Source: Crambe crambe (taxonomy: Eukaryota > Porifera > Demospongiae > Poecilosclerida > Crambeidae). Taken from it: a stretch of DNA of 64,000 nucleotides. The position numbers and the translations under genes were made by a program. Position 1 is the stretch's first letter, and the number at the start of each line of letters is the position of its first letter. The notes under the pieces are model-generated. The model made no database searches, was not told the origin of the DNA, and saw nothing but the letters and a program-made list of their open reading frames with translations. Below are positions 11,790 through 54,590 of this stretch, piece by piece. Location of the stretch: positions 5,332,001-5,396,000 of the forward strand of contig OZ004588.1 in assembly GCA_963924555.1 (NCBI GenBank), written 5' to 3'.

Positions 11790-12245
11790 CTACAGTACAT
11801 TATGTTGATAATGGTTGGTAGATGATAGCTATTGAGTGAAGTTATTAGTTGATAAAAGATATTATTAGGGCAATATAATTAAAATTTAATTATGGAGAAT
11901 AATAACAAAATCATATTCCACACATAATAATGCATAAGAGGTTGAGGAAATCACATTTTGAATATACACGATAGACAGTATAAGAGTCAGGTAACTTACT
12001 CCCTGAGGAATAACATTCAGCACACATTGAATATGTACGTATAATAGAAAGAAATTATTAGGAATAGCTATATTAAAACTTACATGCTGAGAAAATCACA
12101 TTCAGCACATTAATTATGCATGCATTGTAGAGGTCAAGTTAAAGTGTACAAGTCAGGAAATATAGAGTAATTAACTTACAACTTGAGAAAATTGCTTTCA
12201 GCACACATTGATGCATAATAGAGGTCAGAAACTTACACTCACATT

Positions 12246-12783
12246 TACCGTAAATCGGGAAATTTTCGCGTAAAATAGCTTCACGTTTTATTTTTTCGAT
12301 GTGTTTATTATTCGTTTTTTGAATCCCCCGCGAATTATTTTCAACGATGAAAATTTCGCTACTATATCCAGGGCGGCAAGTGCTATATAGCGTAGTTCCA
12401 GATCACTTATAAGCTTACTGTGTTCGTGGCTACCATGTGTACCGTGACATGTGGAATGCCAGTCTAGGTGAAACGCTAGAGTGTGAGGGAGCCAACAAAT
12501 GGAAAGGACAGGTATGGGGTGGCAGTGAAAAAATCAGGTACTATCGAAGCGAAAGAAAATCTAACTCTGCCTCCACTTCACAATTCGCTCAAGCAATAGC
12601 CGGAAGACCATCCTTCTGCTGAAGAGAGACTGTAAGCTAGCTAACTAGCTAGCTAATAATACGCAACCGTATATTTTCAATGTTTTAATAATCTGTTGTA
12701 GAAAATATTTCACGTGTTTAATTTTCGATGTTTGAGCCAACTGCGAATTATTTTTAACAGCGAAAATTTCCCGATTTACAGTA
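12246..12783 (+). mobile_element. Inverted-repeat transposon with captured gene fragment
   Basis: The ends are inverted repeats of about 24 bp with one mismatch, reading TAC(C/T)GTAAATCGGGAAATTT inward. Inside, the plus strand encodes VRGYHVYRDMW, NASLGETLEC and further residues, ending in TGA at 12622. The GYHVY motif resembles the start of HIRAN-like domains that are frequent in sponge and cnidarian proteins, so this is probably a captured exon. No transposase is present. The element sits directly against a microexon donor of array B and removes that unit's acceptor. A non-autonomous element is the simplest reading. Confidence 0.68.
12418..12622 (+). pseudogene. HIRAN-like exon fragment inside transposon
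   Basis: Open frame VRGYHVYRDMWNASLGETL followed by a shortened remainder rich in Lys, Arg and Ser. The first part matches the remembered pattern of HIRAN-like modules (Gly-Tyr-His-Val-Tyr, then Gly-Glu-x-Leu-x-Cys). The usual downstream AVAV-like strand is absent, so the domain is incomplete. The identification rests on motif memory only. Confidence 0.4.
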
Positions 12784-15081
12784 GTATATAATTGTTTAAA
12801 ATTTTTATAGCTATTATGATAGAGTAACTTACAGGCTGAGAAAATCACACATTGAAGATGAAAAAAGAAGTTAAGTTAAAGTGCCAGTGTATGACTCACA
12901 GAAGCTTACAGCCTGAGGAAATCACATTCAGCACACATTGAATATGCATAATAGAGGTCAAGTTAAAGTGTATTATGAAATACAGAGTAACTTACAAACT
13001 GAGGAAATCACATTCAGCACACATTGAATAATAGAGGTCAAATTCAAGTGTATGAGTCAGGAAATATAGAGTAACTTACAATCTGAGGAAATGACATTCA
13101 GTACAAATTGAATACGAGTCGAAGTGTATGAGTCAGGAAATATAAGAGTAACTTACATGCTGAGGAAATCACATTCAGCACACATTGAATGTACATGATA
13201 AAGGTCAAGTTAAAGCGTACGAATCAGGAGGTATATTGAAACTTACAAACTGAGGAAATTACATTCAGTACACATTGAATATGCATAATAGAGGTTGAGT
13301 TAAAGTGTGAGTCAGGAAATATAGAGTAACTTACTCCCTGAGGTAATCACATTCAGCACACATAGAAAATGCATAATAGAGATTGATTTAAAGTGTGAGT
13401 CAGGAAATATAGAGTAACTTACAATCTGAGGTAATCACATTCAGCACACATTGAATATGATAATAGAGGTCAAGTTGAAGTGTATTAGTCAGGAAATATA
13501 GAGTAACTTACTCCCTTAGGAAATCACATGTAGCACACATTTAATATGCATAATAAAGGTTGAGTTAAAGTGTGAGTCAGGAAATATAGAGTAACTTACA
13601 GACTGAGGAAATCACAGTCACATTGATAAGTGTATGAATAATGAATAATAGTCGAGATGAAGTGTATGAGTCAGGAAATTTAGAATAACTTACATGCTGA
13701 AAATGTCACATTCAGCACATGAATATGCAATAATAGAGGTTGAGTTAAAGTGTATGAGTCAAGAAATATAGAGTAACTTACGGGCTGGAAATCACACGTT
13801 CAATATACATAATAGAGATCAAGTTGAAGTGTATGTATAATAGTCATTGAGTCAGGAATAATAGGGCATGAGAGAGGTTGATATGAATCAGGTAATATAG
13901 AGCAACTTACCACCTGCACGACACATTGAGAGGTATAGAGTTAAAGCGTATGAGTCAGGAAATTTGAGTAACTTACATCCTGAGGAAATCACATTCAGCA
14001 CACATTGAATACGTATGAGGTCAAGTTAAAGTGTTTGAGTCAGGTAACTTACTAGCTGAGGAAATCATATTCAGCACACATTGAATATACGTAGGTCAAG
14101 TTAAAGTGTTTGAGTCAGGAAATATACAGAAACTTACTCGCTGAGGAAATAACATTCAGCAGAGATCATATCAAAGTGTATACAAGTCAAGTAACTTACA
14201 ACCTGAAGAAGTCACATGAATTACATATGCATTAGTTAAAGTGAATGAGTCAGGAAATTTAAAGTAACTTACTATCTGAAGAAGTCGCATTCAGCACGAG
14301 AGATTGAGTTAAATCGTATAAGTCAGGAAATATAGAGTAACTTACTTCCTGAGGATCAAAACACAGAATAATCATGACTCAGGAAAAAAAGAGTAACTTA
14401 CTTCCTGATGTTCCTGATGAAATAATTACACACAACATACAGTCATAGAAAGTAAATCAGAAAATGGTGGGACAGTATACAAATTAACTTACATCTTCAG
14501 GTGGCTAGAGATGAGGAACCATATACGTACATAAGTTGGCAATAAATAGTTTTAGGAAGACTTTCATTATGCCATTAAGTATAAGAGTCAGAGGAACTTA
14601 CTTTCTGCAAAGATAATAGAAGAGGTGAAATCAATTACATAGAAAGTAACTTACTTCCTGAAGTCAATCACATGTTAGAAGGCATACAAATTGAATAGGA
14701 AGTTGAACAGAAAGTGGTGAGACATTATACAAACCAACTTACATCCTTAGGTGGCTAGAGATAAGAAACCATGTTAGGTTATTTATAGCAAATAAAAAAA
14801 AAATTCATCCAAGTTTGAGGTATAAATAATTATGAGTTAGAGGAACTTACTTCCTGCAGAGATGATATAGAAGAGGTGAAAAATCAGTTATATTATTTGG
14901 ATGGAGATAACTTACTTCCTGAAGAAATTATTCATCACACATGATATGGATAACATAGAAGTACATAGAAATGGAAAATGACATCATATGCAAAACTAAC
15001 TTACATCTTTAGGTGGCTAGAGATAAGGAGCCATGCGATACGTAAGGTTTTGATGATTGGGTGTATGGGGGGAAAAATACA

Positions 15082-20729: not shown

Positions 20730-23700
20730 AACTTACTTCCTGACGGTATAACTGTGTTCATTTGAGTTGAAGTTCATGAGCCAGGAAATAATTCATAACC
20801 AATGATAAACGACAGAGAATAACTTACTTCCTATAGAAATTAATAGTGGTCAATTAATTATAGAGTAACTTACAGGCTGAGGAAATAGAATATGGTTGAA
20901 AATAAGTATAAGAGTCAGGTAACTTACTCCCTGAGGAAATCACATTCACACACATTGATGGATGTTGATTTACAAATCAGGAAATATAGAGTAACTTACA
21001 GGCTGAGGAAATAAAAGATTGGTTATAATAATAGAGGTTGAGTTAAAGTGTATGAGTTAGAAAGTAACTTACTTCCCAATGAAATCCCTATCATTCAGCA
21101 CATTGAATATGTAATGAGTGAATGAAGCATGCACATTAAGCACACATAGAAAATGCATAATAGAGGTCAAGTTAAAAGTGTATAGACTAGGTTATAATTA
21201 CCATCTGAGGAAATCACATTCAGCACATATTGTCATTTGAATATGTCAAGTTAAGTCAGGAAATATATATAAACTTACTTGCTGAGGAAATCACATTCGG
21301 CACACATTGAATATACATGATAAAGAGTTGAAGTGTATACAGGAAATTTGAGTAACTTACTTCCTAATGAACTCGCATTGAATATATATCATAGAGGTCA
21401 AGTTAAAGTGTATGAGTCAGGGAATATATAGTAACTTACTTCCTGAGGAAATCACAAGTTAAAAGTGTATGAGTCAGGGAATATATTATAGTAACTTACA
21501 TTCTGATGAAATCACATTGAATGCATAATAGAGGTCAAGTTATAAGTCAGCAAAAGTAGAACAACTTACATACTGTATAAATCACATTCAGCACAATGAA
21601 TATGAGGTTAAGTGTATGTGTCAGGAAATATAGAGTAACTTACAAACTGCGAGTCAGAGTAACTTACACGCTGAAGAAATCACATTCAGCACACATTGAA
21701 TATGCATAATAAAGTGTGAGTCAGGAAATATAGAGTAACTTACAGCCTGAGGAAATCACATTCAGCACACATTGAATATGCATAATAGAGGTCAAGATCA
21801 AGTGTATGAGTCAGGAAATATAGAGTAACTTACAACCTGAAGAAATCACATTCAGCACACATTGAATATGTATAATGGAGGTTGAGTTAAAGTGCGAGTC
21901 AGAGTAACTTACACGCTGAAGAAATCACATTCAGCACACATTGAATATGCATAATAAAGTGTGAGTCAGGAAATATAGAGTAACTTACAGCCTGAGGAAA
22001 TCACATTCAGCACACATTGAATATGCATAATAGAGGTCAAGATCAAGTGTATGAGTCAGGAAATATAGAGTAACTTACACTGTTCTGAGGAAATCAGATT
22101 TAGCAGATATTGAGATTTAGCACACATTGAATGTAAATTGAGGTAACTTACAAACTGAAAAAAGTCACATTCAGCACATGAATATGTATGATAGAGGTTG
22201 AATTAGAGTGTATGAGTCAGGAAACTGAGTGACTTACGCTCTGGAAATCACACATTCAATATACATAATGGAGAAGATCAAGTTGAAGTGCATGCATATT
22301 ATGTCATTGAGTCAGGAATAATAGGGTAGATGAAATCACATTTAGTACACATTGAATATGCATAATAGAGGTGAAGATGAAGTGTATGAGTCGGGAAATG
22401 ATAAACAGAAACTTACTTCCTGAGGAAATCACATTCAGCACACATTGAATATGTATAATAGAGTGTATGAGTCAGGAAACAATGAACAGAAACTTACAGA
22501 CTGAGGAAATCACATTCAGCACACATTGAATACACATAATAGAGGCTTCAAGTTAAAGTGTATGAGTCAGGGAATATAGAGTAACTTACAACCTGAAGAA
22601 ATCACATTCAGCATACATTGAAGATGCAATAGAGGTCAAGTTAAAGAGTGTTTGAGTCAGGAAACGTACAGAAACTTACTATCTGAGGAAATCACATTCA
22701 ACACACATTAAATACGCAAAATAGAGGTCAAGTTCAAGTGTATGATAAACAGAAACTTACTTGCTGAGGAAATCACATTCAGCACACATTGAATATGCAT
22801 AATAGAGGTCAAGTTAAAGTGTATTATGAAATACAGAGTAACTTACAAACTGAGGAAATCACATTCAGCACACATTGAATAATAGAGGTCAAATTCAAGT
22901 GTATGAGTCAGTAACTTACAATCTGAGGAAATGATATTCAGTACAAATTGAATACGCATAATAGAGGTCAAGTCGAAGTGTATGAGTCAGGAAATATAAG
23001 AGTAACTTACAAACTGAGGAAATTACATTCAGCACACATTGAATATGCATAATAGAGGTTGAATTAAAGTGTGAGTCAGGAAATATAGAGTAACTTACTC
23101 CCTGAGGTAATCACATTCAGCACACATAGAAAATGCATAATAGAGATTGATTTAAAGTGTGAGTCAGGAAATATAGAGTAACTTACAACCTGAGGAAATC
23201 ACATTCAGCACACATTGGATACACATAATAGAGGTTAAGTGGAAGTGCATGAGTCGGGAAATTTGAATAACTTACAGGCTGAGGAAATCACATTCAGCAC
23301 ACATTGAATAAGCATAATAGAGGTTGAGTTAAAGTGTGAGTCAGGAAATATAGAGTAACTTACTCCCTGAGGTAATCACATTCAGCACACATTGAATATG
23401 CACAATAGAGGTCAAGAGGTCAAGTTAAAGTGTATGAATCAGTAAGAGATAAAGACGAACTTACAGCCTGAGGAAATCACATTCAGCACACATTGAATAT
23501 GCACAATAGAGGTCAAGAGGTCAAGTTAAAGTGTATGAATCAGTAAGAGATAAACAGAAACTTACAGTCTGAGGAAATCACATTCAGCATACATTGAATA
23601 CGTTAAAGTTGCATGAGTCAGGAAATATAGATTAACTTACATACTGAGGAAATCACATTCAGCACACATCGAGTGTGCATAATAGAGGTCAAGTTAAAGT

Positions 23701-25660
23701 GTATGAGTCAGGAAATATAGAGTAACTTACTTCCTGAAGAAATCACATTCAAGCACACATTGAGTGTGCATAATAGAGGTCAAGTTAAAGTGTATTAGTC
23801 AGGAAATATAGAGTAGCTTACTTCCTGAAGAAATCACATTCAGCACACATTGAATATGCATAATAGAGGTTGAGTTAGTGTGAGTCAGGAAATATAGAGT
23901 AACTTACTTCCTGAGGAAATCACATTCAGCACACATTGAATATGCATAATAGAGGTCAAGTTGAAGTGTATTAGTCAGGTTAACTTACACACTGAGGAAA
24001 TCACATTCAGCACACATTGAATATGCATAATAAAGTGTGAGTCAGGAAATATAGAATAACTTACGGACTGAGGAAATCACATTCAGCACACATTGAATAT
24101 GCATAATAGAGGTCAAGTTGAAGTGTATTAGTCGGGAAATATAGAGTAACTTACTCCCTTAGGAAATCACATTTAGCACACATTTAATATGCATAATAAA
24201 GGTTGAGTTAAAGTGTGAGTCAGGAAATATAGAGTAACTTACAGACTGAGGAAATCACAGTCACATCGATAAGTGTATGAATAATGAATAATAGTCGAGA
24301 TGAAGTGTATGAGTCAGGAAATTTAGAATAACTTACATGCTGAAAATATCACATTCAGCACATGAATATGCAATAATAGAGGTTGAGTTAAAGTGTATGA
24401 GTCAAGAAATATAGAGTAACTTACGGGCTGGAAATCACACATTCAATATACATAATAGAGATCAAGTGTATGTATAATAGTCATTGAGTCAGGAATAATA
24501 GGGCATGAGAGAGGTTGATATGAATCAGGTAATATAGAGCAACTAACCACCTGCACGACACATTGAGAGGTATAGAGTTAAAGCGTATGAGTCAGGAAAT
24601 TTGAGTAACTTACATCCTGAGGAAATCACATTCAGCACACATTGAATATGAGGTCAAGTTAAAGTGTTTGAGTCAGGTAACTTACTAGCTGAGGAAATCA
24701 TATTCAGCACACATTGAATATAGGTCAAGTGAAAGTGTTTGAGTCAGGAAATAATACAGAAACTTACTCGCTGAGGAAATAACATTCAGCAGAGATCATA
24801 TCAAAGTGTATACAAGTCAAGTAACTTACAACCTGAAGAAGTCACATGAATTACGTATGCATTAGTTAAAGTGAATGAGTCAGGAAATTTAAAGTAACTT
24901 ACTATCTGAAGAAGTCACATTCAGCACGAGAGATTGAGTTAAATCGTATAAGTCAGGAAATATAGAGTAACTTACTTCCTGAGGATCAAAACACAGAATA
25001 ATCATGACTCAGGAAAAAAAGAGTAACTTACTTCCTGATGTTCCTGATGAAATAATTACACACAACATACAGTCATAGAAAGTAAATCAGAAAATGGTGG
25101 GACAGTATACAAACTAACTTACATCTTCAGGTGGCTAGAGATGAGGAGCCATATACGTACATAAGTTGGCAATAAATAGTTTTAGGAAGACTTTCATTAT
25201 GCCATTAAGTATAAGAGTCAGAGGAACTTACTTTCTGCAAAGATAATAGAAGAGGTGAAATCAATTACATATGGATAGAAAGTAACTTACTTCCTGAAGT
25301 CAATCACATGTTAGAAGGCATACAAATTGAATAGGAAGTTGAACAGAAAGTGGTGAGACATTATACAAACCAACTTACATCCTTAGGTGGCTAGAGATAA
25401 GAAACCATGTTAGGTTATTTATAGCAAATAAAAAAAAATTCATCCAAGTTTGAGGTATAAATAATTATGAGTTAGAGGAACTTACTTCCTGCAGAGATAA
25501 TAATATAGAAGAGGTGAAAAATCAGTTATATTATTTGGATGGAGATAACTTACTTCCTGAAGAAATTATTCATCACACATGATATGGATAACATAGAAGT
25601 ACATAGAAATGGAAAAAGACATCATATGCAAAACTAACTTACATCTTTAGGTGGCTAGAG
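20730..25660 (-). repeat. Microexon-type repeat array C
   Basis: About 56 units with acceptor, codon, donor on the minus strand. Seventeen or so amino acids are represented (including Tyr, Cys, Thr, Asn, Phe, Ala, Arg) with no stop. One exon is six bases (AACAGT, Asn-Ser, at about 22075). Three 12-nt PPKD/PPED exons sit at about 25118, 25376 and 25640, each followed by two single-codon exons as in array B. The conserved parts are the donor GTAAGTT, the acceptor TTTCCTCAG and the TGCTGAATG motif about 18 bases upstream of it. A few units (for example 21063, acceptor lost) are damaged. The array separates exon 1 (26815) from the ZU5 exons of copy C. Confidence 0.82.
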
Positions 25661-36193: not shown

Positions 36194-37831
36194 TTAAAGA
36201 GTTAATAAACTTGCTGTGAGTCCGAATCCAGCCTTATCCACAGCTGACTTGAGAGCTGGCAGAGTAGCATAAGATGTGCTGCCCCTGGCATCCCCAGGGG
36301 CCCATTGCAGCCAAGATGCAAGCATGGCACTGAGGTAGCTCTGTGGTGCTCCATCCAAGAGACTTGGATTTGCTCGTATTGCATCCAGTTCTCCAGGTTT
36401 AAAGCCAAGGTGCTGTCCAATGGCTCGCCATGCAGATAAATGGGGATTCAACTGCTCACATATTCTGCCATGGTCAGGTTGTGTAGTGTGAGATATTTCT
36501 TGACTAGCACTGTTGGATTCTGCATTCAGCACAGTTGTATACAATAGTTGCTCGAATTCCAGTAATCTGATGTGCATGCTATATACTTAGCCTTGTTATA
36601 TAAGGCCTGGGTACGAGGCTAGCTATTATACTAACCTTTATTAGGCTTATCCATGACCATCATGAAGTAATTGTGTGGTTGTTTTGCTCCAATGAGGTTC
36701 AATTCGTAATGTAAATCAGATGATTCTTCACTTTGCATCCACTTGAGATGAAGTTTGCAAAGAGGTGGCCATCCACCAGCAAATTCGTCGACTTCACTTC
36801 TCTTTATCTATAAAATTGTGTGGAGACCATGACAACAAAAATAACATCATAGATAGCATATGACATGATAGTGATGCCCTACCCCAGGATGTGCTAATGG
36901 TAGTAAGGTCCATCCAGGTTGTATTTCTACTCCTTTTTTTAGAAGTTGCTCTGGAAGATCGAGTTTAATTTCCCTGCCAGAAAATTTCACACTCTGGTGA
37001 GCAAGTGATGTAACTGAAACTCCTTCATCAGAAAAGTATTTCTTCAAGTGCTATAATACAAAGAAGAAATCATGTGCTAGCTAGCTGTATCTATTTTCTT
37101 TCTTAGCCAAGTAGCTACAAAGTGAGGGAACTGTATCTGGAGAGACCTCCAGTGGAACTTGACACACTATAATTAGAGATGATAGAGACAGCTATGACTA
37201 TTACCGTTCTGAAAAGTTCGGAATCTTTCAAGACTGCAAAGTAGATGTTCCAGTTATACTGGGAAGAAAGCTCACAATTGAGAGAAGCACAGTATCTGTT
37301 TTCCACAAGTAAAAGGAGTAGCTTTCTTCTGAGAATAGCAAATATCGAGAAGTGCTGCACATTTATTTCCCCAAACTTTTCACCAGCAGGAAAAATACCA
37401 CCATCTATTTCTCGGAAGGTATAAGGAGGTTTATAATCAGAATTAACAGCAAATACGAGATCATCCATGTAACCATCAGATGAGAAGTGTTCTATCCCCA
37501 CTGTGACAGGTTTCTCAAAGTAAGAAGAAGAGCTCTTGATACTGTATACTCCGCTCACCAGCTCAGTAGCAGCAGGGAATACAAATTGACCAGAAATAGC
37601 AGCTTTGACTTGTAAAACACACTCACTCTCGTCCAGAGATAAAGCGTTTTCTGGAAAGCTGATCTTGAAACCATGGTCTTCCCAGACATGTGTGATGGGT
37701 TCTTGCTTATAAGGAATTGATGTCTCTCCAAGTACATCAAGTCCAGAAAGATCTGTTCTTTCAATAAAAATTAATTTAAATAGCTATAGTGCCTTACCAT
37801 AAGATGCAGGTTCTGAGACTCTTGGTGGCAC
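36194..37831 (-). CDS. ZU5-Death domain protein copy D, 3' exons
   Basis: Exons on the minus strand: 37798-37831 (34 nt, VPPRVSEPASY), 37205-37752 (ZU5, 548 nt), 36883-37050 (168 nt, HLKKYFSDEG to LAHPG), 36636-36807 (172 nt, EVDEFAGGW to DKPNKG) and 36194-36518 (Death domain, ending SLLTL and TAA). All frames are open and all phases fit. Domain order is ZU5, a UPA-like middle region, and Death (WRAIGQHLGFKPGEL, YLSAMLASWLQWAP, SAVDKAGFGL). The predicted role is a cytoplasmic Death-fold adaptor, by analogy with UNC5/PIDD/ankyrin relatives; partners are unknown. Upstream lies by far the largest microexon-type array (37.98-48.82 kb) and exon 1 at 52049. No membrane segment or signal peptide is seen. 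Confidence 0.82.
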
Positions 37832-37974
37832 CTAAATGTTGGTAGATGATAGCATGAAATAAGTAGCTATTGAGTGAAGTCATGAGATAATTATTAGGGC
37901 ATTAAAATTAATTATGGAGAATAATAACAAAATCATATTCCACACAATAATGCATAAGAGGTTGATGCTGATAT

Positions 37975-38780
37975 GTAAAGAAACTTACTTCCTGACGATA
38001 GGACTGTGGATTAAAGAGGTTCAGTCAAAATATAGATTAGGAAATTATAGAGAGCTTACAGGCTAAAGGAATTACATCATAGTGTTCGTTGGAGTTGAAG
38101 TTCATGAGGAAATAATCATAACATAAACAATGATAGATGACAGAGAATAATTTACTTCCTAAAGGAAAAAAAATATTTTGATGAATAATAATATAGAGGT
38201 TTAGAGGTTACTTTAGGTGAGTAACTTACACTCTGAGTCTGAGGAATCACATTTACTCCCTGAGGAATAACATTCAGCACACAAATATGTATAATAGAGG
38301 TTGAGTTCAGGAAAGGAAATCACATTCAGCACACAATAATAGAAGTCATGTTAAAAACGTATGAACTTGCAAATATAGAGTAACTGACATACTGAGGAAA
38401 TCACATTAAGCATACATTGTATATGCATATAAATAGAGGTCAAGTTAAAGTGTAAAATGATAAAAAGAAACTTACTTGCTGAGGAAATCACATTCAGCAC
38501 GCATTGAATATGTATAATAGAGGTCAAGAGGTCAAGTTAAAGTGTATGGAAATATACAGAAACTTACAGACTGAGGAGATTACATTCAGCACACATTGAA
38601 TATGGTTAAGTTAAAGTGTATGAGTCAGGAAATATAGATTAACTTACAGACTGAGGAAATCACATTCAGCACACATTGAATACACATAATAAAGGTCAAG
38701 TTCAAGTGTATGAGTCAGGAAATATAGAGTAACTTACATCCTGAGGAAATCACATTCAGCACATATAGAATATGCATAAA
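37975..38780 (-). repeat. Array D, degenerate 3' flank
   Basis: Nine diverged units before the homogeneous block. Codons on the minus strand are Glu, Pro, Glu, Ser, Tyr, Gln, Ser, Ser and Asp from low to high coordinate. Donors include GTAAATT and GTCAGTT variants. They resemble arrays A-C more than the homogeneous block next door. Confidence 0.72.
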
Positions 38781-41700
38781 GTGTATGAGTCAGGGAATAT
38801 ACAGAAACTTACCATCTGAGGAAATCACATTCAGCACATTATAGAATATGCATAAAGTGTATGAGTCAGGGAATATACAGAAACTTACTCTCTGAGGAAA
38901 TCACATTCAGCACATATAGAATATGCATAAAATGCATGAGTAAGGGAATATACAGAAACTTACTTTCTGAGGAAATCACATTCAGCACATATAGAATATG
39001 CATAAAGTGTATGAGTCAGGGAATATACAGAAACTTACTTTCTGAGGAAATCACATTCAGCACATACAGAATATGCATAAAGTGTATGAGTCAGGGAATA
39101 TACAGAAACTTACTTTCTGAGGAAATCACATTCAGCACATATAGAATATGCATAAAGTGTATGAGTAAGGGAATATACAGAAACTTACAATCTGAGGAAA
39201 TCACATTCCGCACATATAGAATATGCTTAAAGTGTATGAGTCAGGGAATATACAGAAACTTACTTCCTGAGGAAATCACATTCAGCATGTATAGAATATG
39301 CATAAAGTGTATGAGTCAGGGAATATACAGAAACTTACTTCCTGAGGAAATCACATTCAGCACATATAGAATATGCATAAAGTGTATGAGTCAGGGAATA
39401 TACAGAAACTTACCATCTGAGGAAATCACATTCAGCACATATAGAATATGCATAAAATGCATGAGTAAGGGAATATACAGAAACTTACTTTCTGAGGAAA
39501 TCACATTCAGCACATATAGAATATGCATAAAGTGTATGAGTCAGGGAATATACAGAAACTTACTTCCTGAGGAAATCACATTCAGCACATATAGAATATG
39601 CATAAAGTGTATGAGTCAGGGAATATACAGAAACTTACCATCTGAGGAAATCACATTCAGCACATATAGAATATGCATAAAGTGTATGAGTCAGGGAATA
39701 TACAGAAACTTACATTCTGAGGAAATCATATTCAGCACATTTAGAATATGCATAAAGTGTATGAGTCAGGGAATATACAGAAACTTACTTCCTAAGGAAA
39801 TCACATTCAGCACATATAGAATATGCATAAAGTGTATGAGTCAGGGAATATACAGAAACTTACTCTCTGAGGAAATCACATTCAGCACATAGTGAATATG
39901 CATAAAGTGTATGAGTCAGGAAATATACAGAAACTTACAACCTGAGGAAATCACATTCAGCACATATAGAATATGCATAAAGTGTATGAGTCAGGAAATA
40001 TACAGAAACTTACTCTCTGAGGAAATCACATTCAGCACATATAGAATATGCATAAAGTGTGTGAGTCAGGGAATATACAGAAACTTACTTCCTGAGGAAA
40101 TCACATTCAGCACATATAGAATATGCATAAAGTGTATGAGTCAGGGAATATACAGAAACTTACAATCTGAAGAAATCACATTCAGCACATACAGAATTCA
40201 CATTCAGCACATACAGAATATGCATAAAGTGTATGAGTCAGGGAATATACAGAAACTTACCATCTGAGGAAATCACATTCAGCACATACAGAATATGCAT
40301 AAAGTGTATGAGTCAGGGAATATACAGAAACTTACTCTCTGAGGAAATCACATTCAGCACATACAGAATATGCATAAAGTGTATGAGTCAGGGAATATAC
40401 AGAAACTTACTTCCTGAGGAAATCACATTCAGCACATACAGAATATGCATAAAGTGTATGAGTAAGGAAATATACAGAAACTTACTTCCTGAGGAAATCA
40501 CATTCAGCACATATAGAATATGCATAAAGTGTATGAGTCAGGGAATATACAGAAACTTACTTCCTGAGGAAATCACAATCAGCACATACAGAATATGCAT
40601 AAAGTGTATGAGTCAGGGAATATATAGAAACTTACTCTCTGAGGAAATCACATTCAGCACATACAGAATATGCATAAAGTGTATGAGTCAGGGAATATAC
40701 AGAAACTTACTTCCTGAGGAAATCACATTCAGCACATATAGAATATACATAAAGTGTATGAGTAAGGGAATATACAGAAACTTACTTCCTGAGGAAATCA
40801 CATTCAGCACATATAGAATATACATAAAGTGTATGAGTAAGGGAATATACAGAAACTTACCATCTGAGGAAATCACATTCAGCACATATAGAATATGCAT
40901 AAAGTGTATGAGTCAGGGAATATACAGAAACTTACTCTCTGAGGAAATCACATTCAGCACATATAGAATATGCATAAAATGCATGAGTAAGGGAATATAC
41001 AGAAACTTACTTTCTGAGGAAATCACATTCAGCACATATAGAATATGCATAAAGTGTATGAGTCAGGGAATATACAGAAACTTACTTTCTGAGGAAATCA
41101 CATTCAGCACATATAGAATATGCATAAAGTGTATGAGTCAGGGAATATACAGAAACTTACTTTCTGAGGAAATCACATTCAGCACATATAGAATATGCAT
41201 AAAGTGTATGAGTAAGGGAATATACAGAAACTTACAATCTGAGGAAATCACATTCCGCACATATAGAATATGCTTAAAGTGTATGAGTCAGGGAATATAC
41301 AGAAACTTACTTCCTGAGGAAATCACATTCAGCACATATAGAATATGCATAAAGTGTATGAGTCAGGGAATATACAGAAACTTACTTCCTGAGGAAATCA
41401 CATTCAGCACATATAGAATATGCATAAAGTGTATGAGTCAGGGAATATACAGAAACTTACCATCTGAGGAAATCACATTCAGCACATATAGAATATGCTT
41501 AAAGTATATGAGTCAGGGAATATACAGAAACTTACTTCCTGAGGAAATCACATTCAGCACATATAGAATATGCATAAAGTGTATGAGTCAGGGAATATAC
41601 AGAAACTTACTCTCTGAGAAAATCACATTCAGCACATATAGAATATGCATAAAGTGTATGAGTCAGGGAATATACAGAAACTTACTTCCTGAGGAAATCA

Positions 41701-44700
41701 CATTCAGCACATTATAGAATATGCATAAAGTGTATGAGTCAGGGAATATACAGAAACTTACCATCTGAGGAAATCACATTCAGCACATATAGAATATGCA
41801 TAAAGTGTATGAGTCAGGGAATATACAGAAACTTACCATCTGAGGAAATCACATTCAGCACATACAGAATATGCATAAAGTGTATGAGTCAGGGAATATA
41901 CAGAAACTTACTCTCTGAGGAAATCACATTCAGCACATACAGAATATGCATAAAGTGTATGAGTCAGGGAATATACAGAAACTTACTTCCTGAGGAAATC
42001 ACATTCAGCACATACAGAATATGCATAAAGTGTATGAGTAAGGAAATATACAGAAACTTACTCCCTGAGGAAATCACATTCAGCACATATAGAATATGCA
42101 TAAAGTGTATGAGTCAGGGAATATACAGAAACTTACTTCCTGAGGAAATCACAATCAGCACATACAGAATATGCATAAAGTGTATGAGTCAGGGAATATA
42201 TAGAAACTTACTCTCTGAGGAAATCACATTCAGCACATACAGAATATGCATAAAGTGTATGAGTCAGGGAATATACAGAAACTTACTCTCTGAGGAAATC
42301 ACATTCAGCACATATAGAATATGCATAAAGTGTATGAGTCAGGGAATATACAGAAACTTACTTCCTGAGGAAATCACATTCAGCACATACAGAATATGCA
42401 TAAAGTGCATGAGTCAGGGAATATACAGAAACTTACCCACTGAGGAAATCATATTCAGGACATATAGGATATGCATAAAGTGCATGAGTCAGGGAATATA
42501 CAGAAACTTACCATCTGAGGAAATCACATTCAGCACATAATAGAATATGCATAAAGTGTATGAATCAGGAAATATACAGAAACTTACTTCCTGAGGAAAT
42601 CACATTCAGCACATACAGAATATGCATAAAGTGTATGAGTCAGGGAATATACAGAAACTTACTCTCTGAGAAAATCACATTCAGCACATATAGAATATGC
42701 ATAAAGTGTATGAGTCAGGGAATATACAGAAACTTACTCTCTGAGAAAATCACATTCAGCACATATAGATATGCATAAAGTGTATGAATCAGGAAATATA
42801 CAGAAACTTACTTCCTGAGGAAATCACATTCAGCACATACAGAATATGCATAAAGTGTATGAGTCAGGGAATATACAGAAACTTACTCTCTGAGAAAATC
42901 ACATTCAGCACATATAGATATGCATAAAGTGTATGAATCAGGAAATATACAGAAACTTACTTCCTGAGGAAATCACATTCAGCACATACAGAATATGCAT
43001 AAAGTGTATGAGTCAGGGAATATACAGAAACTTACCATCTGAGGAAATCACATTCAGCACATAATAGAATATGCATAAAGTGTATGAATCAGGAAATATA
43101 CAGAAACTTACTTCCTGAGGAAATCACATTCAGCACATACAGAATATGCATAAAGTGTATGAGTCAGGGAATATACAGAAACTTACTCTCTGAGAAAATC
43201 ACATTCAGCACATATAGAATATGCATAAAGTGTATGAGTCAGGGAATATACAGAAACTTACTCTCTGAGAAAATCACATTCAGCACATATAGATATGCAT
43301 AAAGTGTATGAATCAGGAAATATACAGAAACTTACTTCCTGAGGAAATCACATTCAGCACATACAGAATATGCATAAAGTGTATGAGTCAGGGAATATAC
43401 AGAAACTTACTCTCTGAGAAAATCACATTCAGCACATATAGAATATGCATAAAGTGTATGAGTCTGGGAATATACAGAAACTTACAATCTGAGGAAATCA
43501 CATTCAGCACAAATCACATTCAGCACATATAGAATATGCATAAAGTGCATGAGTCAGGGAATATACAGTAACTTACCATCTGAGGAAATCACATTCAGCA
43601 CATATAGAATATGCATAAAGAGTATGAGTCAGGGAATATACAGAAACTTACTCTCTGAGAAAATCACATTCAGCACATATAGATATGCATAAAGTGTATG
43701 AATCAGGGAATATACAGGAACTTACTTCCTGAGGAAATCACATTCAGCACATACAGAATATGCATAAAGTGTATGAGTCAGGGAATATACAGAAACTTAC
43801 TTCCTGAGGAAATTACATTCAGCACATACAGAATATGCATAAAGTGTATGAGTCAGGGAATATACAGAAACTTACTTCCTGAGGAAATCACATTCAGCAC
43901 ATACAGAATATGCATAAAGTGTATGAGTCAGGGAATATACAGAAACTTACTTCCTGAGGAAATTACATTCAGCACATACAGAATATGCATAAAGTGTATG
44001 AGTCAGGGAATATACAGAAACTTACTTCCTGAGGAAATCACATTCAGCACATATAGAATATGCATAAAGTGTGAGAGTCAGGGAATATACAGAAACTTAC
44101 ACTCTGAGGAAATCACATTCAGCACATACAGAATATGCATAAAGTGTATGAGTCAGGGAATATACAGAAACTTACTTCCTGAGGAAATCACATTCAGCAC
44201 ATATAGAATATGCATAAAGTGTATGAGTCAGGGAATATACAGAAACTTACTTCCTGAGGAAATCACATTCAGCACATACAGAATATGCATAAAGTGTATG
44301 AGTCAGGGAATATACAGAAACTTACTTCCTGAGGAAATCACATTCAGCACATACAGAATATGCATAAAGTGTATGAGTCAGGGAATATACAGAAACTTAC
44401 TTCCTGAGGAAATTACATTCAGCACATACAGAATATGCATAAAGTGTACGAGTCAGGGAATATACAGGAACTTACTTCCTGAGGAAATCACATTCAGCAC
44501 ATATAGAATATGCATAAAGTGTATGAGTCAGGGAATATACAGAAACTTACTCTCTGAGGAAATCACATTCAGCACATATAGAATATGCATAAAGTGTATG
44601 AGTCAGGGAATATACAGAAACTTACTCTCTGAGGAAATCACATTCAGCACATAGAATATGCATAAAGTGTATGAGTCAGGGAATATACAGAAACTTACAC

Positions 44701-47700
44701 TCTGAGGAAATCACATTCAGCACATAGAATATGCATAAAGTGTATGAGTCAGGGAATATACAGAAACATACCTTCTGAGGAAATCACATTCAGCACATAT
44801 AGAATATGCATAAAGTGTATGAGTCAGGGAATATACAGAAACTTACTTCCTGAGGAAATCACATTCAGCACATATAGAATATGCATAAAGTGCATGAGTC
44901 AGGGAATATACAGAAACTTACCATCTGAGGAAATCACATTCAGCACATATAGAATATGCATAAAGTGTATGAGTCAGGGAATATACAGAAACTTACCATC
45001 TGAGGAAATCACATTCAGCACATATAGAATATGCATAAAGTGTATGAGTCAGGGAATATACAGAAACTTACTTCCTGAGGAAATCACATTCAGCACATAT
45101 AGAATATGCATAAAGTGTATGAGTCAGGGAATATACAGAAACTTACTTCCTGAGGAAATCACATTCAGCACATACAGAATATGCATAAAGTGCATGAGTC
45201 AGGGAATATACAGAAACTTACCCACTGAGGAAATCATATTCAGGACATATAGGATATGCATAAAGTGCATGAGTCAGGGAATATACAGAAACTTACCATC
45301 TGAGGAAATCACATTCAGCACATAATAGAATATGCATAAAGTGTATGAATCAGGAAATATACAGAAACTTACTTCCTGAGGAAATCACATTCAGCACATA
45401 CAGAATATGCATAAAGTGTATGAGTCAGGGAATATACAGAAACTTACTCTCTGAGAAAATCACATTCAGCACATATAGAATATGCATAAAGTGTATGAGT
45501 CAGGGAATATACAGAAACTTACTCTCTGAGAAAATCACATTCAGCACATATAGATATGCATAAAGTGTATGAATCAGGAAATATACAGAAACTTACTTCC
45601 TGAGGAAATCACATTCAGCACATACAGAATATGCATAAAGTGTATGAGTCAGGGAATATACAGAAACTTACTCTCTGAGAAAATCACATTCAGCACATAT
45701 AGATATGCATAAAGTGTATGAATCAGGAAATATACAGAAACTTACTTCCTGAGGAAATCACATTCAGCACATACAGAATATGCATAAAGTGTATGAGTCA
45801 GGGAATATACAGAAACTTACCATCTGAGGAAATCACATTCAGCACATAATAGAATATGCATAAAGTGTATGAATCAGGAAATATACAGAAACTTACTTCC
45901 TGAGGAAATCACATTCAGCACATACAGAATATGCATAAAGTGTATGAGTCAGGGAATATACAGAAACTTACTCTCTGAGAAAATCACATTCAGCACATAT
46001 AGAATATGCATAAAGTGTATGAGTCAGGGAATATACAGAAACTTACTCTCTGAGAAAATCACATTCAGCACATATAGATATGCATAAAGTGTATGAATCA
46101 GGAAATATACAGAAACTTACTTCCTGAGGAAATCACATTCAGCACATACAGAATATGCATAAAGTGTATGAGTCAGGGAATATACAGAAACTTACTCTCT
46201 GAGAAAATCACATTCAGCACATATAGATATGCATAAAGTGTATGAATCAGGAAATATACAGAAACTTACTTCCTGAGGAAATCACATTCAGCACATACAG
46301 AATATGCATAAAGTGTATGAGTCAGGGAATATACAGAAACTTACTCTCTGAGAAAATCACATTCAGCACATATAGAATATGCATAAAGTGTATGAGTCTG
46401 GGAATATACAGAAACTTACAATCTGAGGAAATCACATTCAGCACAAATCACATTCAGCACATATAGAATATGCATAAAGTGCATGAGTCAGGGAATATAC
46501 AGTAACTTACCATCTGAGGAAATCACATTCAGCACATATAGAATATGCATAAAGAGTATGAGTCAGGGAATATACAGAAACTTACTCTCTGAGAAAATCA
46601 CATTCAGCACATATAGATATGCATAAAGTGTATGAATCAGGGAATATACAGGAACTTACTTCCTGAGGAAATCACATTCAGCACATACAGAATATGCATA
46701 AAGTGTATGAGTCAGGGAATATACAGAAACTTACTTCCTGAGGAAATTACATTCAGCACATACAGAATATGCATAAAGTGTATGAGTCAGGGAATATACA
46801 GAAACTTACTTCCTGAGGAAATCACATTCAGCACATACAGAATATGCATAAAGTGTATGAGTCAGGGAATATACAGAAACTTACTTCCTGAGGAAATTAC
46901 ATTCAGCACATACAGAATATGCATAAAGTGTATGAGTCAGGGAATATACAGAAACTTACTTCCTGAGGAAATCACATTCAGCACATATAGAATATGCATA
47001 AAGTGTATGAGTCAGGGAATATACAGAAACTTACACTCTGAGGAAATCACATTCAGCACATACAGAATATGCATAAAGTGTATGAGTCAGGGAATATACA
47101 GAAACTTACTTCCTGAGGAAATCACATTCAGCACATATAGAATATGCATAAAGTGTATGAGTCAGGGAATATACAGAAACTTACTTCCTGAGGAAATCAC
47201 ATTCAGCACATACAGAATATGCATAAAGTGTATGAGTCAGGGAATATACAGAAACTTACTTCCTGAGGAAATCACATTCAGCACATACAGAATATGCATA
47301 AAGTGTATGAGTCAGGGAATATACAGAAACTTACTTCCTGAGGAAATTACATTCAGCACATACAGAATATGCATAAAGTGTACGAGTCAGGGAATATACA
47401 GGAACTTACTTCCTGAGGAAATCACATTCAGCACATATAGAATATGCATAAAGTGTATGAGTCAGGGAATATACAGAAACTTACTCTCTGAGGAAATCAC
47501 ATTCAGCACATATAGAATATGCATAAAGTGTATGAGTCAGGGAATATACAGAAACTTACTCTCTGAGGAAATCACATTCAGCACATAGAATATGCATAAA
47601 GTGTATGAGTCAGGGAATATACAGAAACTTACCTTCTGAGGAAATCACATTCAGCACATATAGAATATGCATAAAGTGTATGAGTCAGGGAATATACAGA

Positions 47701-48190
47701 AACTTACTTCCTGAGGAAATCACATTCAGCACATATAGAATATGCATAAAGTGCATGAGTCAGGGAATATACAGAAACTTACCATCTGAGGAAATCACAT
47801 TCAGCACATATAGAATATGCATAAAGTGTATGAGTCAGGGAATATACAGAAACTTACCATCTGAGGAAATCACATTCAGCACATATAGAATATGCATAAA
47901 GTGTATGAGTCAGGGAATATACAGAAACTTACCATCTGAGGAAATCACATTCAGCACATATAGAATATGCATAAAGTGTATGAGTCAGGGAATATACAGA
48001 AACTTACTTCCTGAGGAAATCACATTCAGCACATATAGAATATGCATAAAGTGTATGAGTCAGGGAATATACAGAAACTTACTAGCTGAGGAAATCACAT
48101 TCAGCACATACAGAATATGCATAAAGTGTATGAGTCAGGGAATATACAGAAACTTACTAGCTGAGGAAATCACATTCAGCACACATTGAA
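38781..48190 (-). repeat. Array D: 75-bp minisatellite of single-codon microexon units
   Basis: About 125 units, almost all exactly 75 bp. On the minus strand each unit reads TGCTGAATG (branch-point-like), TTTCCTCAG acceptor, three bases, GTAAGTTTCTGTATA donor, leaving 72-nt introns. The three enclosed bases are by far the most variable: I count about 53 GAA, 29 AGA, 19 ATG, 9 AAA/AAG, 5 ATT, 3 AGT, 2 TGG, 2 CTA and one each of GGA, AAT and GTT, with no stop. Elsewhere the unit varies at a handful of sites (for example TATAGAAT/TACAGAAT). A block at about 42430-44690 is repeated at 45215-47625 in the same codon order with two units added, so the array grew partly by multi-unit duplication. 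The long plus-strand frames through it are a by-product of 75 being 25 x 3. Confidence 0.88.
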
Positions 48191-48814
48191 TATGCAGAAT
48201 AAAGGTTGAGTAAAAGTGTAGGAGTCAGGAAATATAGAGTAACTTACAGACTGAGGAAGTCACATTCGCACACATTGAATATGCAAAATAGAGGTCATGT
48301 TTAAGTGTACGATTCAGGGAATATAATAATAGAGACTTACAGACTGAAGAAATCATATTCAGTACACATTGAATATGCATAATAGAGGTGTATGAATCAG
48401 GAAATACAGAGTAACTTACAGGCTGAGGAAATCACATTCAGCACACATTGAATATACAAAATAGAGGTCAAGCTTAAGTGTACAGGAATAATATATAGAG
48501 ACTTACAGACTGAAGAAATCACATTGAATATGCATAATAGAGTGTAAATATTCAGCACACATTGAACATGCATAATGGAGGTTGAGTTAAAGTGTGAGTC
48601 AGGTAATATAGAGTAACTTACAGGCTGAGGAAATCATATTCAGCACACATTGAAAATAGAGGTTGAGTTAACAGAGAGGCAAAAGTCATTTACGTAAAAC
48701 AGATACATAGAAAAGTAACTTACTTCCTAAAGTGATGATTAGAAGACATGATAATATAAGAGGTAAACAAGAAATGGTAAGAAAGTGTACAAACCAACTT
48801 ACATCTTTAGGTGG
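48191..48814 (-). repeat. Array D, degenerate 5' flank with PPKD exon
   Basis: Six diverged units (codons Ser, Ser, Pro, Ser, Pro, Glu from low to high coordinate) and then the 12-nt exon 48803-48814 (CCACCTAAAGAT, Pro-Pro-Lys-Asp) between a CTCTAG acceptor and a GTAAGTTGG donor. In the gene's own direction PPKD comes first after exon 1. Unlike B and C, only one PPKD-type exon is present. Confidence 0.75.
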
Positions 48815-51800
48815 CTAGAGATAAGGAGCCATGCAGATATGTAAGAGAAGTTTTGATGATCGGGTAGAGAGATAATATATACGGGAAAAAAAAGTGGTTC
48901 ATTCAACATAATATTAAATGATTATTGCACCCTTCAGTATGGAATACCATGATTTATTACACGCGAGCTGGGGAATATTTCCGAGGCCACATTATTTATC
49001 TATTCTATACTATAGCTCTCTAAAATGGACCTGGAGAGGTTCTCAGAGCGCAAGTGGTGAACTATAGGTTGATGAGACGAGGATGGTTCATCCCTTGAAT
49101 ATTCCTACTGGAAGCTCAGTAGACCTTTTAGTGTTCTCACTATCTTTATCATACAGCAATTTGTCAATTTCATCCTCGCTAACCTTACTGCCATTTCTCA
49201 GTCCACGAATTAAAACCATAGCAATAATTCATGCGCATGTAATACGAGTATTTATCACATGTCACATGGATCAATCAAATTGTCTCATTTTAGAGAGCTA
49301 TATGTATTATCATGAATGTTGATACCATAGTGGGTTTTATTTTGAGTGGCGAAAATTTTGTGGTTTTTTATGAATAACAAAAATTTAACCTACGAATGTT
49401 GATATACATAGAAATCTACCATGCCCCACAGTAAGTTATCAATCACTGCAGTGTCAAAACAACAACAACGACAACAAAAACAATAACAACAATCAAAACT
49501 TGTCTTCTAGATCCCCAAGACTCCCTATCAAGGATAGTATCATCTTCCTCTACAGTTCCAGTTAATTCACTGGTGAAAAATTGCTATGAAAGATTGTGGC
49601 CACAGATCGTACTCTAAGTATGATCACTATATCTGCTACCTCAAATGAGCTAGTCATAGTCACAACTTCTATACTTCTATGCTGCACAGGCATGGCAGCA
49701 CGTACCTGCCACTAGTAGGAATGGCATGGATTGCCCCATTGGACTAATACTTATTATGCTGGAAATTTTGTTACTGTATTTTCATGGTCATATTCAACAA
49801 TGAAAAATTACATGAAAATTATCCTGGTATAAAAAATAATAACAGGCAAGAAAATAAATTAACATGAATAACTCAATTTACAGTAGAGACTGGATTTATA
49901 GTGTAGGAGCAGATGCCATTTTATGCAGTGAAAATTCACATTATTCATGCACGAGTTATCAGAGAGCGCGATAGCGCTCTCTATGTAGGGATGACCTATG
50001 ACCCTATATAGGACTAATACTAAATGCAGTTGGATTTACTCAGAAAATAGTAAGTTGTAGCTGTTATGACTGCTTATCCTGTATTTTATGCACATTCTTA
50101 TCATGCAGGAGAATTTTGGAGACTGATACCCTCAACACAGAAGAGCAATAAAAGTGTGCATATTCATGATTTCTTATTCTTCATGTTCTTAATCATCATA
50201 TTCTTCATAATAATGGCACGATGTGGAGAAAAATTGGGCCGCGTTATGGCTATGTTCTATATATGAATGTGTAGCATTTTACCCCGACTAGTGCAGTGTG
50301 GCATCGGTTTAGCCTCTAGTTCACTCAGAAAAAAAGCCGCTCTCTTAGTACAGGGACTATACAACAAAGAAATTGAACATAACGCGCATGCGTAACAAAC
50401 GATAGTATAGTTGCCATGACTCTCGAAGCAAAAAGCCATTTCGACCATAGAGATAGAGCAGAATAATATAGTCAGCTCTAAGCTAGCTATTACTAGCTAG
50501 AACTGTAAGGACAGCGTGTAAATTTTGAATGGTAGACCTAAGCTTACTCGAGCTCATAATCTGCCAGTGAGTTGTGCATTATTTAGAAACGAAAGCAGGC
50601 TCCCTAGCCTGCCCTAGCCCTTCTCCCTTCTTTTATCTATGAGCTCAGCTAGTTAGAAGATTTTAATTCAGGCTTGGTTGTGATCCAGGATTGCAATACA
50701 AGAGCTATGAAAATTGAATTTCATGAAACAAGAACAGCTACAGTTACCTTGCCTCCTTCCCCTACCACTCTATGAACCAGCATAACAATTAATATTAAAA
50801 ACAGTTATAATAAGGAGGAAAAAAAACACTAACTACTTCCTACTGAACAATAATCATAACAAGCAGCTATAATGAGGTATTCATAATAGATGCTCTAAAG
50901 ACCTCCTGCAAAAAGAATTCTATTAAAAAAAAAGAGAAAAGAAACAAGTAAAGAAAAAAACATTTATTCTAATAAATGAAGGTGATGTAGGGATGACTAG
51001 TTAACTGGTCAAAAAAGAGTTGGAACAAGAGCTGAATAGATGACTGCAAGGATGAAGTTGAATCCAGGTGCAGTCACTAGTGTGACGTACCCACATTCGA
51101 CTTCATCCTTGCAGTCATCTATTCAGCTCTTATTCCAACTCTTTTTTGACCAGTTAACTAGTCATCCCTACATCACCTTCATTTATTAGAATAAATGTTT
51201 TTTTCTTTACTTGTATAATTATGTGATGACCCCTTATCAGCGATCAGAATGTTTGAATTATCTCATTTTGGAACTGAGCAATACATAATATTTCGTGTTA
51301 AAAATAATTCATGTAATAAAGTTAAATAATTAGTTTCTGTACAATGTAATAAGCTTTAAGACATTTCATACAGGAAGAAGTGTTTTTAACAACTGAAATA
51401 GAAGCAAATTAAAGTACTAATTTTCATTAGATAATAATTCTCTTTTGTTGTCATAGCTACTTGTAATTAGCTTTTTGTACAAGGTGATTAATTTTCGTGC
51501 GATTAATTTTCTTGTTGAACATGACCATGAAAATAAATGAATAATGTAGATCATTATTTATGTATAATGGAATGTTCAAGCAACCTTGTAATAATAAAGT
51601 GGTGACCATTTACCACTGTGGTGAATGATAGGGATATTATCATTGATTGTGGGTCTAGCTAGTGTTCTTGATTTTTATCAGGAAGTAGCTATAGAGCCCT
51701 TCAAAACTATATTATGTAGAAGTAACTAGCCACTGTATAAGATAGCTACATGGAGAAAAAAAAGACAGCCGAGGTCCGAGGTCCAATGTTGGCTCATTTT

Positions 51801-52048
51801 CTGAGCTTTTAAACTTCCTTGTACCCCACACCAATCACCTTTGATCCCTAAACCGAGAAAGGCTGACTATGTACAATGCATAATAACTTATTAAAACAAC
51901 AAAACCTTGGCCATGATAGCTAACATTTTATTTGGAGTATTATAATTCCAAACTCTATAGCTAATAAAAGCCACCATTGATTTATTCTGGCTGGTAGGAA
52001 AAATGCAATTTTATGGCTATCCAGCCACACTGAAGTAAGCTTACTTAC
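48815..52048 (-). other. Intron 1 of copy D
   Basis: No supported exon. It contains an AAC-rich microsatellite (about 49456-49495), the foldback element at 50944-51213, and scattered AT-rich sequence. It shares little with intron 1 of copies B and C apart from the first bases after the donor. Confidence 0.5.
50944..51213. mobile_element. Near-perfect foldback element
   Basis: Two inverted arms of about 115 bp (50944-51058 and 51099-51213) flank a loop of about 40 bp. The outer ends read ACAAGTAAAGAAAAAAACAT and its complement. The arms are nearly identical, so the insertion or gene conversion is recent. No coding capacity. Confidence 0.85.
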
Positions 52049-52063
52049 CCGTGGTTCAGTCAT
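52049..52063 (-). CDS. Copy D first coding exon (MTEPR)
   Basis: ATGACTGAACCACGG and then the donor GTAAGTAAG on the minus strand: phase 0, five codons. It is homologous to MSEPR of B and C, with synonymous and conservative changes. It lies about 3.2 kb upstream of the PPKD exon. The KDZ transposon begins less than 100 bp further upstream, so the promoter of copy D may be altered relative to the other copies. Confidence 0.68.
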
Positions 52064-52696: not shown

Positions 52697-52910
52697 GAGG
52701 TGTGAGGGGTGGCATGAGAGGGATGAGAGGGGTGCAAGGGGTGGCACGAGAGGGTAGTGTGTGAGGGGTGGCATGAGAGGGATACGAGGGGGGCATGAGA
52801 GGGGTGTGAGGGGTGGCATGAAGTGGGGGCATGAGAGGGGTGTGAGTGGTGGCATGGGAGGGTGCGAGGGGTGGCATGAGAAGGGTGAGAGGGGTGCAAG
52901 GGGTAGGTGT
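52697..52910. repeat. G-rich minisatellite in intron
   Basis: Irregular repeats of GTGAGGGGTGGCATGAGAGG-like units between the donor at 52685 and the acceptor at 52948 of the homeodomain-like gene. Strongly strand-asymmetric (G on plus). It produces overlapping His/Pro/Ser-rich shadow frames on the minus strand. Confidence 0.85.
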
Positions 52911-54159: not shown

Positions 54160-54590
54160 CATCTTCCAAGGTCGCCTCTAAGGTTAAGACGCCACCCTCT
54201 GGCTCCCGAGTCAATGCTCCGCCCTCCACCTCCAAGGTTGCCTCCAAAGTCAATGCTCCGCCCTCCACCTCCATGGTCATCTCCAAAGTCAATGCTATGC
54301 CCTCCAGCTCCAAAGTCAATACTTCGCCCTCCACCTCCAAGGTCACCTCCAAAGTCAATGCTCTGCCCTCCACCTCCGTGGTCATCTCCAAAGTCAATGC
54401 TACGCCCTCCAGCTCCAAAGTCGCCTCCAAAGTCAATGCTCCGCCCTCCACCTCCATGGTCACCTCCAAAGTCAATGCTCCGCCCTCCACCTCCATGGTC
54501 ATCTCCAAAGTCAATGCTCTGCCCTCCACCTCCTTGGTCGCCTCCAAAGTCAATGCTCCACCCTCCACCTCTGAAGTCGATAAACCACCC
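54160..54590 (+). repeat. Coding tandem repeat (Pro/Ser/Val-rich)
   Basis: Units of about 36-45 bp around AAAGTCAATGCTCCGCCCTC are repeated about ten times in frame within the cargo gene. Some units differ by loss or gain of whole codons, so frame was kept during expansion. All six frames are fairly open here, giving false long frames on the minus strand. Confidence 0.8.

Follow-up and report, generated by a model that had tools for sequence, protein, structure and literature searches.

Tandem arrays of putative single-codon exons in probable immune-type gene families of the sponge Crambe crambe

How short can a coding exon be, and how many such exons can follow one another within a single gene? 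The question is raised by a 64,000-nucleotide stretch of the genome of the sponge Crambe crambe (GenBank assembly GCA_963924555.1, contig OZ004588.1, positions 5,332,001 to 5,396,000; hereafter the window), whose sequence suggests that, in gene families of probable immune type, as many as 137 mini-exons of one codon each follow one another in tandem. The largest array belongs to a minus-strand gene, copy D (Table 1). A preliminary description of the window had proposed that about 140 units, each composed of an acceptor AG, three bases and a donor, lie between a first exon encoding MTEPR and a 34-nucleotide (nt) exon. There are 137 AG-NNN-GTRAG units between these exons, running from 48726 to 37991 on the minus strand, and the exons lie where they had been placed. 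All units are in phase 0 and free of stops, so that any subset could indeed be skipped in frame, and the joined model comprises 144 exons, close to the roughly 145 foreseen. The proposed intron length of 72 nt holds for 103 of the 136 gaps between units and fails for the rest, the full span being 68-243 nt. When joined, the order MTEPR-PPKD-137 codons-VPPRVSEPASYD..., followed by four more downstream exons, is open for 561 codons up to its own stop; 141 of these codons sit in microexons (the 137 units plus PPKD).

The motif is confined almost entirely to one strand of the window: AG-NNN-GTAAG occurs 249 times on the minus strand versus 4 on the plus strand, and the stricter TCAG-NNN-GTAAGT 216 times versus none. 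The core of the copy D array is a 75-bp repeat, flanked at both ends by older units of 80-90 bp. Copy D is one of nine arrays of 24-137 units each (seven minus, two plus) in 264 kb of the same contig (C11), the window included; outside copy D, the unit counts include some GAT units that are merely the last codon of the PPKD exon. The units are very probably real single-codon coding exons in phase 0, multiplied by tandem duplication and spliced by intron definition. At the sequence level the proposal is borne out by the uniform length of the units, the avoidance of stops, the retention of splice sites and the open frames, and the same support comes from the eight other C11 arrays and from arrays on another chromosome.

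The exact length of three bases is apparent in the 264-kb stretch, where, with both strands pooled, [CT]AG-N(k)-GTAAGT has 512 matches at k=3; among the remaining values of k between 0 and 30, only k=12 (25) and k=15 (13) exceed 9 matches. With a looser GTAAG ending, 20 of the k=12 matches are PPKD-type exons, 16 of them exactly PPKD. In the whole 143-Mb assembly there are 513 tandem pairs of TCAG-NNN-GTAAGT with a gap of 52-82 and 2811 with a gap of 83-113 (repeat counts meaning at least these numbers), while the reversed-pattern control gives none at either gap range. Units of 4 nt form no tandem pairs genome-wide at either range (reversed controls 2 and 20), and units of 2 nt form 2, at the longer gap only (reversed control 6). 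The shorter-gap pairs include 385 on the minus strand, of which 233 lie in the C11 stretch and 90, among the matches listed, on C1; the 128 on the plus strand are fully placed, 127 in the C11 stretch and 1 on C1. For the longer gap, 16 of the 2811 pairs fall in the C11 stretch, and the 100 among the matches listed are all on C1.

The triplets themselves contain no stops. As the first triplet of a pair, TAA and TGA are absent genome-wide (0/513 and 0/2811), and so is TAG at the longer gap (0/2811), the only range covered by the genome-wide TAG search; 360 of the 513 shorter-gap pairs belong to the C11 stretch, where the 504 units scored include no TAG. Base composition would predict 23 stops among these 504 units and 26 among 162 units at three C1 loci (L029-L031), and none occurs in either set; when only unique units are counted, there are 0 in 330 on C11 (13 expected) and 0 in 106 on C1 (16.5 expected). 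TAG is the cleanest case of this apparent avoidance: 17 are expected on C1 and none is seen, though GAG (40), AAG (6) and a first-base T are common there. The count omits three matches at 28036-28551 (one of them TAA), which lie outside any array of at least 10 units. Chance or a plain satellite was rejected on the length spectrum and the stop avoidance.

Splice-site retention was assessed by locating units through their intron cores, with the splice sites unused, a row being in register when its cores are 12 bases apart. In the copy D core, 131 of 134 rows are in register and show 0/262 mismatches in AG and 0/262 in GT, against 2.1% in the cores. The corresponding values are 2/352 and 1/352 against 7.4% on C1 (176 of 189 rows in register), and 4/432 and 3/432 against 6.4% in the remaining eight arrays of C11 (216 of 301). 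The sole stop among in-register rows, a TGA in copy E, has CAA where the CAG acceptor is expected. If the upstream core alone is used and a small shift is allowed, AG-3 nt-GT is intact in 133/134 units of copy D and 252/266 units of the other eight arrays.

The exons beyond the arrays behave as parts of genes. One common exon family (GLDVLGETS...) follows all nine C11 arrays. When all copies but A, with its truncated main exon, are compared in pairs, the 28 ratios of nonsynonymous to synonymous substitution rates (dN/dS) of the main exon lie between 0.22 and 0.69; these downstream exons are therefore coding and constrained. The 34-nt and main exons are fused without an intron and with a continuous frame in copies G and H, which confirms the junction between them. 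The MTEPR exon of copy D is conserved in copy F (C11:5429205, 86% over 156 nt). Some copies also share the codons at the array end, namely EEDEKEEIVRLD in B and C and YNEEQPGPEE in C and F.

Table 1. Predicted copy D exons and other array-bearing copies in the window
Feature	Position	Strand	Remarks
Copy A array, 31 AG-NNN-GTRAG units	2820..5483	-	Truncated main exon, possible pseudogene
Copy B array, 27 AG-NNN-GTRAG units + PPKD exons	12000..15016	-	Main exon about 11701-11174
Copy C array, 54 AG-NNN-GTRAG units + PPKD exons	20737..25654	-	Main exon about 20616-20062
Copy D last exon, Death-domain-like, stop codon	36194..36519	-	Pfam Death E=0.0065, sub-cut-off
Copy D exon	36636..36807	-	Open joined frame
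Copy D exon	36883..37050	-	Open joined frame
Copy D main exon, ZU5-like in the preliminary description only	37205..37752	-	Pfam, PDB and fold without confirmation
Copy D 34-nt exon VPPRVSEPASY(D)	37798..37831	-	Sequence, joined frame
Copy D array, 137 single-codon microexons	37989..48726	-	75-bp core about 38.7-48.2 kb + older ends
Copy D 12-nt exon CCACCTAAAGAT, PPKD	48803..48814	-	Sequence match
Copy D exon 1 ATGACTGAACCACGG then GTAAGT, MTEPR, phase 0	52049..52063	-	Read in sequence

Several further features accompany the arrays. The main exon of copy A, at 2792-2415 (-), is cut short and ends in a divergent C-terminus (SEFGLTANEL). Candidate 6-nt exons, read between CAG and GTAAGT, occur within arrays at window positions 4257 and 22084 and at C11:5423905 on the minus strand (GCCAGA, AACAGT and AATAGT). 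By eye, a long MITE-like inverted repeat (resembling a miniature inverted-repeat transposable element) is present at 50960-51240 in the first intron of copy D. A G+C-rich minisatellite lies upstream of its exon 1 (52699-52903), and a 39-bp tandem repeat of about 9.6 copies at 54209-54571.

The window gene had been labelled a ZU5-Death adaptor; the Death part is matched by Pfam below threshold (17 bits vs a cut-off of 22.6), and no ZU5 match with E of 0.01 or less is obtained for copy D. A PDB sequence search with the main exon returns nothing at E up to 1, and an AlphaFold model of this exon, built from a 3-row alignment, has a predicted local distance difference test score (pLDDT) of 29 and is unusable for the fold. 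None of the 64 ZU5 matches in the genome falls inside the 264-kb stretch. The label is kept as a weakly supported possibility. A known RNA family was also considered, and Rfam gives no match in the window.

In a second family, on C1, such arrays lie on the 5' side of Roc-COR genes. At C1:8138001-8146000 (L029), an array points at a 670-aa open frame with Pfam Roc (6.6e-7) and COR-A (1e-15) domains, both above the Pfam cut-off; genome-wide, there are 339 candidates for COR-A, and each of the 150 that were scored is a match. Proximity was counted for 28 minus-strand Roc-COR genes at C1:8.14-9.37 Mb against the 90 minus-strand C1 pairs among the matches listed: 15/28 genes have an array pair no more than 10 kb away on the 5' side, and 0/28 have one at that distance on the 3' side. 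A Pfam ZU5 match is found within 5 kb downstream of two C1 arrays, one of which, when read, gives 27 array codons without a stop; that this array and ZU5 form one gene is only a candidate relation. The C1 introns contain, in addition, an antisense AG-CAT-GTAAG (in 59/64 and 68/72 at two loci and 14/22 at the third of L029-L031, + strand), which is probably one chance match that spread with the repeat. It provides an internal control, as the sense triplet spans 21 codons while the antisense CAT is near-invariant in two loci.

Elsewhere in the assembly, genes with ZU5 and/or COR-A form large clusters at C3:7.48-7.83 Mb and on C5, C8 and C9. The C3 cluster is on the plus strand, and none of the 128 plus-strand pairs with a gap of 52-82 falls there. 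Contig C119 (19,532 bp) is mitochondrial, with TGA read as Trp; 13.8 kb were read, with gene runs that we take to be atp8-atp6-cox3-cob-atp9-nad4 and nad6-nad3-nad4L-cox1-nad1, the names coming from recognition of the proteins (cox1 alone from Pfam). A mitochondrial atp9 gene in an animal indicates a sponge, and most probably a demosponge.

Among the 103 of 125 core units of copy D that are exactly 75 nt apart, diversity is 0.53 per site in the codon versus 0.026 for intron sequence, and 8 codons are represented among 32 units whose following introns are identical. Hypermutable codons, which this diversity within the array would suggest, are countered by a run of 20 units that is duplicated almost exactly in copy D, where 1 codon (2 nt) has changed versus 4/1452 intron sites. 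Most array-to-array alignments are in arbitrary register and overstate codon change. Four comparisons in true register, picked by judgement (three array pairs and the copy D duplicate), give 8/126 changed codon sites vs 69/3521 intron sites, a 3.2-fold difference (P 0.005); the excluded pair B-C is higher (14/66 vs 56/1954) and raises the totals to 22/192 vs 125/5475, or 5-fold. For copies C and F, which differ at 6/48 codon sites and 49/1610 intron sites, main-exon synonymous divergence (dS) is 0.138, and gene-body dS among the C11 copies is 0.08-0.22. As the codons change at close to the synonymous rate, diversifying selection, though possible, need not be invoked. On the simplest reading, the codons would change at about the synonymous rate, while the introns may be restrained by constraint or exchange.

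The composition of the arrays also differs between copies (chi-square P 8e-22, for units that are not independent). Copy D is rich in E/R/M, G in S/V and H in S/E/G, with a later part rich in S/G/F/Y; within each array the composition is coherent. Mostly one codon is used per amino acid, and the choice is family-specific (GAA, TCT and CCT on C11; GAG, TCG and CCG on C1). Codon bias was dropped as proof of translation, since the synonymous codons that became fixed are not the same in both families.

The following mechanism could account for these features. An intron together with a one-codon exon would have been duplicated in tandem between a short first exon and a conserved gene body, and the same architecture may have been amplified ahead of Roc-COR genes on another chromosome. 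We infer that the array is transcribed and that its units are included in the mRNA; splicing would then proceed codon by codon, through intron definition, to which introns as short as these (about 70-115 nt in most cases) are suited. An acceptor and a donor only 3 nt apart are probably hard to occupy together, and introns might therefore be removed in sequence, with frequent skipping. Since no choice of units would break the frame or bring in a stop, a heterogeneous set of mRNAs is probable. The product would be a low-complexity tail of some 25-140 residues at the N-terminus, with a copy-specific composition, which might modulate an immune-type adaptor or GTPase.

A number of observations weigh against the arrays being coding exons of the genes that follow them. 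The MTEPR first exon was not found in the other seven of the nine C11 copies, and in copies C, G and H an ATG opens the exon after the array, so that translation could begin there. In the eight other C11 arrays, 14/266 units are dead or rearranged. An acceptor-only test in these arrays, with no downstream core required and no shift allowed, shows 20/532 AG mismatches vs 4.3% in the cores (P=0.32), and with looser cores there is no excess conservation either (P=1); this null was largely traced to one-base shifts and rearranged remnants, but it still weakens the acceptor argument. The absence of stops is open to a similar objection: CAG-TRA-GTAAGT makes a second, overlapping donor, and a splicing constraint alone could thus purge TAA and TGA, though the loss of TAG falls outside this explanation. 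Copy D alone would be expected to hold only about 4 stops (P of none 0.015), and the units are kin by duplication, so that such counts are not independent. On C1, the asymmetry around the Roc-COR genes fades at 30 kb, where array pairs lie 5' of 20/28 genes and 3' of 15/28. A circular-shift test with 28 COR and 8 ZU5 genes finds 11 in a 5-kb window vs 6.4 expected, 405 of 10000 shifts being as high; the closeness of arrays and genes on C1 is only suggestive by this test.

Two readings in which the triplets would not be exons of a protein both appear very improbable. A non-coding satellite whose motifs happen to resemble splice sites, or an array lying wholly within an intron of the 5' untranslated region, would fit the strong tandem repetition, the three copies with ATG directly after the array, the chance antisense motif in the C1 introns and the negative strict acceptor-only test. 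It is hard to reconcile with the avoidance of stops and the exact 3-nt length, or with AG-3 nt-GT being retained in units that were found by intron core, and no Rfam match was obtained in the window. Alternatively, the units might serve as ratchet points for recursive splicing, by which a long intron is taken out step by step, and the triplets would be incidental. The layout of acceptor and donor does resemble recursive splice sites. Known ratchet points, however, are zero-length (AG|GT), whereas three bases would here stay in the mRNA each time, and since these retained triplets avoid stops, the ratchet itself would be coding; such a role is scarcely to be expected.

If the units are indeed single-codon coding exons, two accounts of what the array is for are both compatible with that reading. 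It may be a constructive neutral by-product, grown by unequal exchange, with codons that merely avoid stops and a tail that serves as filler. Codon divergence near dS, the nested higher-order duplications within the copy D array, and a synonymous choice that is fixed within each family and different between families (which looks like a founder effect) make this a serious possibility, if somewhat short of an even chance; array-end codons kept between some copies, though the introns there are similar too, and compositions coherent within arrays speak against it. As a special case of the coding reading, the subsets included might vary between cells or individuals and provide variable recognition tails, as in Dscam1 or the schistosome genes discussed below. 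Every subset stays open, Roc and COR-A domains are present in the second family, the arrays vary in composition from copy to copy, and codons are diverse even before identical introns, all of which would suit such a combinatorial repertoire; the account is nevertheless doubtful, as strong diversifying selection is unnecessary when true-register codon divergence is near gene-body dS. In its boldest form, thousands of one-codon exons ahead of immune-type adaptors and Roc-COR GTPases would act as a codon alphabet from which each mRNA takes an in-order subset, which seems rather unlikely.

How do these arrays compare with known systems? No account of arrays of 3-nt exons was recognised among the titles and opening lines of abstracts returned by full-text searches of Creative Commons-licensed PubMed Central (PMC) literature, a level of search that leaves absence from print unproven. 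Dscam1-type arrays enlarge immune-type repertoires through tandem exon duplication, as might be the case here, but their exons are large and one is chosen per cluster, unlike the one-codon units of the sponge. The closest parallel is offered by the micro-exon genes (MEGs) of schistosomes, which, in the parts of the reports cited here, have microexons of less than 36 bp (26/33 in MEGs 26-32 are symmetric; PMC4671649), most of their coding sequence in small symmetric exons (PMC4350168, PMC4671649), and a 5' exon encoding a signal peptide (PMC4671649, PMC4350168). Both systems have central small symmetric coding exons between longer flanking ones, with skipping that preserves the frame. Compared with these portions of the MEG literature, the sponge arrays differ in that their exons are nearly all exactly 3 nt, number up to 137 per gene and alternate with near-identical tandem introns. 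Furthermore, the microexons hold only 141/561 copy D codons rather than most of the coding region, and exon 1, judged by eye, encodes only MTEPR, with PPKD next, where the MEG 5' exon holds a signal peptide. The phylum and the protein families are different as well.

That splicing can handle exons as small as 1-3 nt is illustrated, in the parts of the reports consulted, by single cases. Microexons of at most 3 nt are described in Drosophila homothorax (a single one; PMC7392893), Drosophila troponin T and mouse Ncam (PMC8042270) and RPS24 (PMC11162997), and 1-nt exons in plant APC11 and VPS55 (PMC8831610). Unlike the sponge units, these stand alone or with one or two others, as far as the same excerpts go. 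Several 3-nt exons per gene, as here, are found in Dactylellina lipS, but they are two (PMC5639578, in part) and not over a hundred. Regarding the gene families, sponge Death/TRADD-N proteins and AP-GTPase-COR conflict proteins belong to lineage-specific expansions in marine invertebrates including Amphimedon (PMC8195603). The sponge families resemble them as lineage-specific expansions of apoptosis- or immunity-type domains; the excerpted parts of that report do not mention microexon arrays.

If transcripts confirm the units, the array would be the densest of exons known to us, and no smaller symmetric exon would be in use on such a scale. The array would probe how far intron definition and the crowding of splice sites can be taken, with sites 3 nt apart more than 100 times running, and would show a protein segment evolving residue by residue through unequal exchange. 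Standard gene finders and RNA aligners very probably miss such exons, so that similar genes may hide elsewhere. Codon-alphabet splicing, if true, would yield a somatic peptide repertoire for recognition of self and non-self or of microbes. In sponges, the arrays would point to diversity of a so far unrecognised origin in gene families that probably serve innate immunity.

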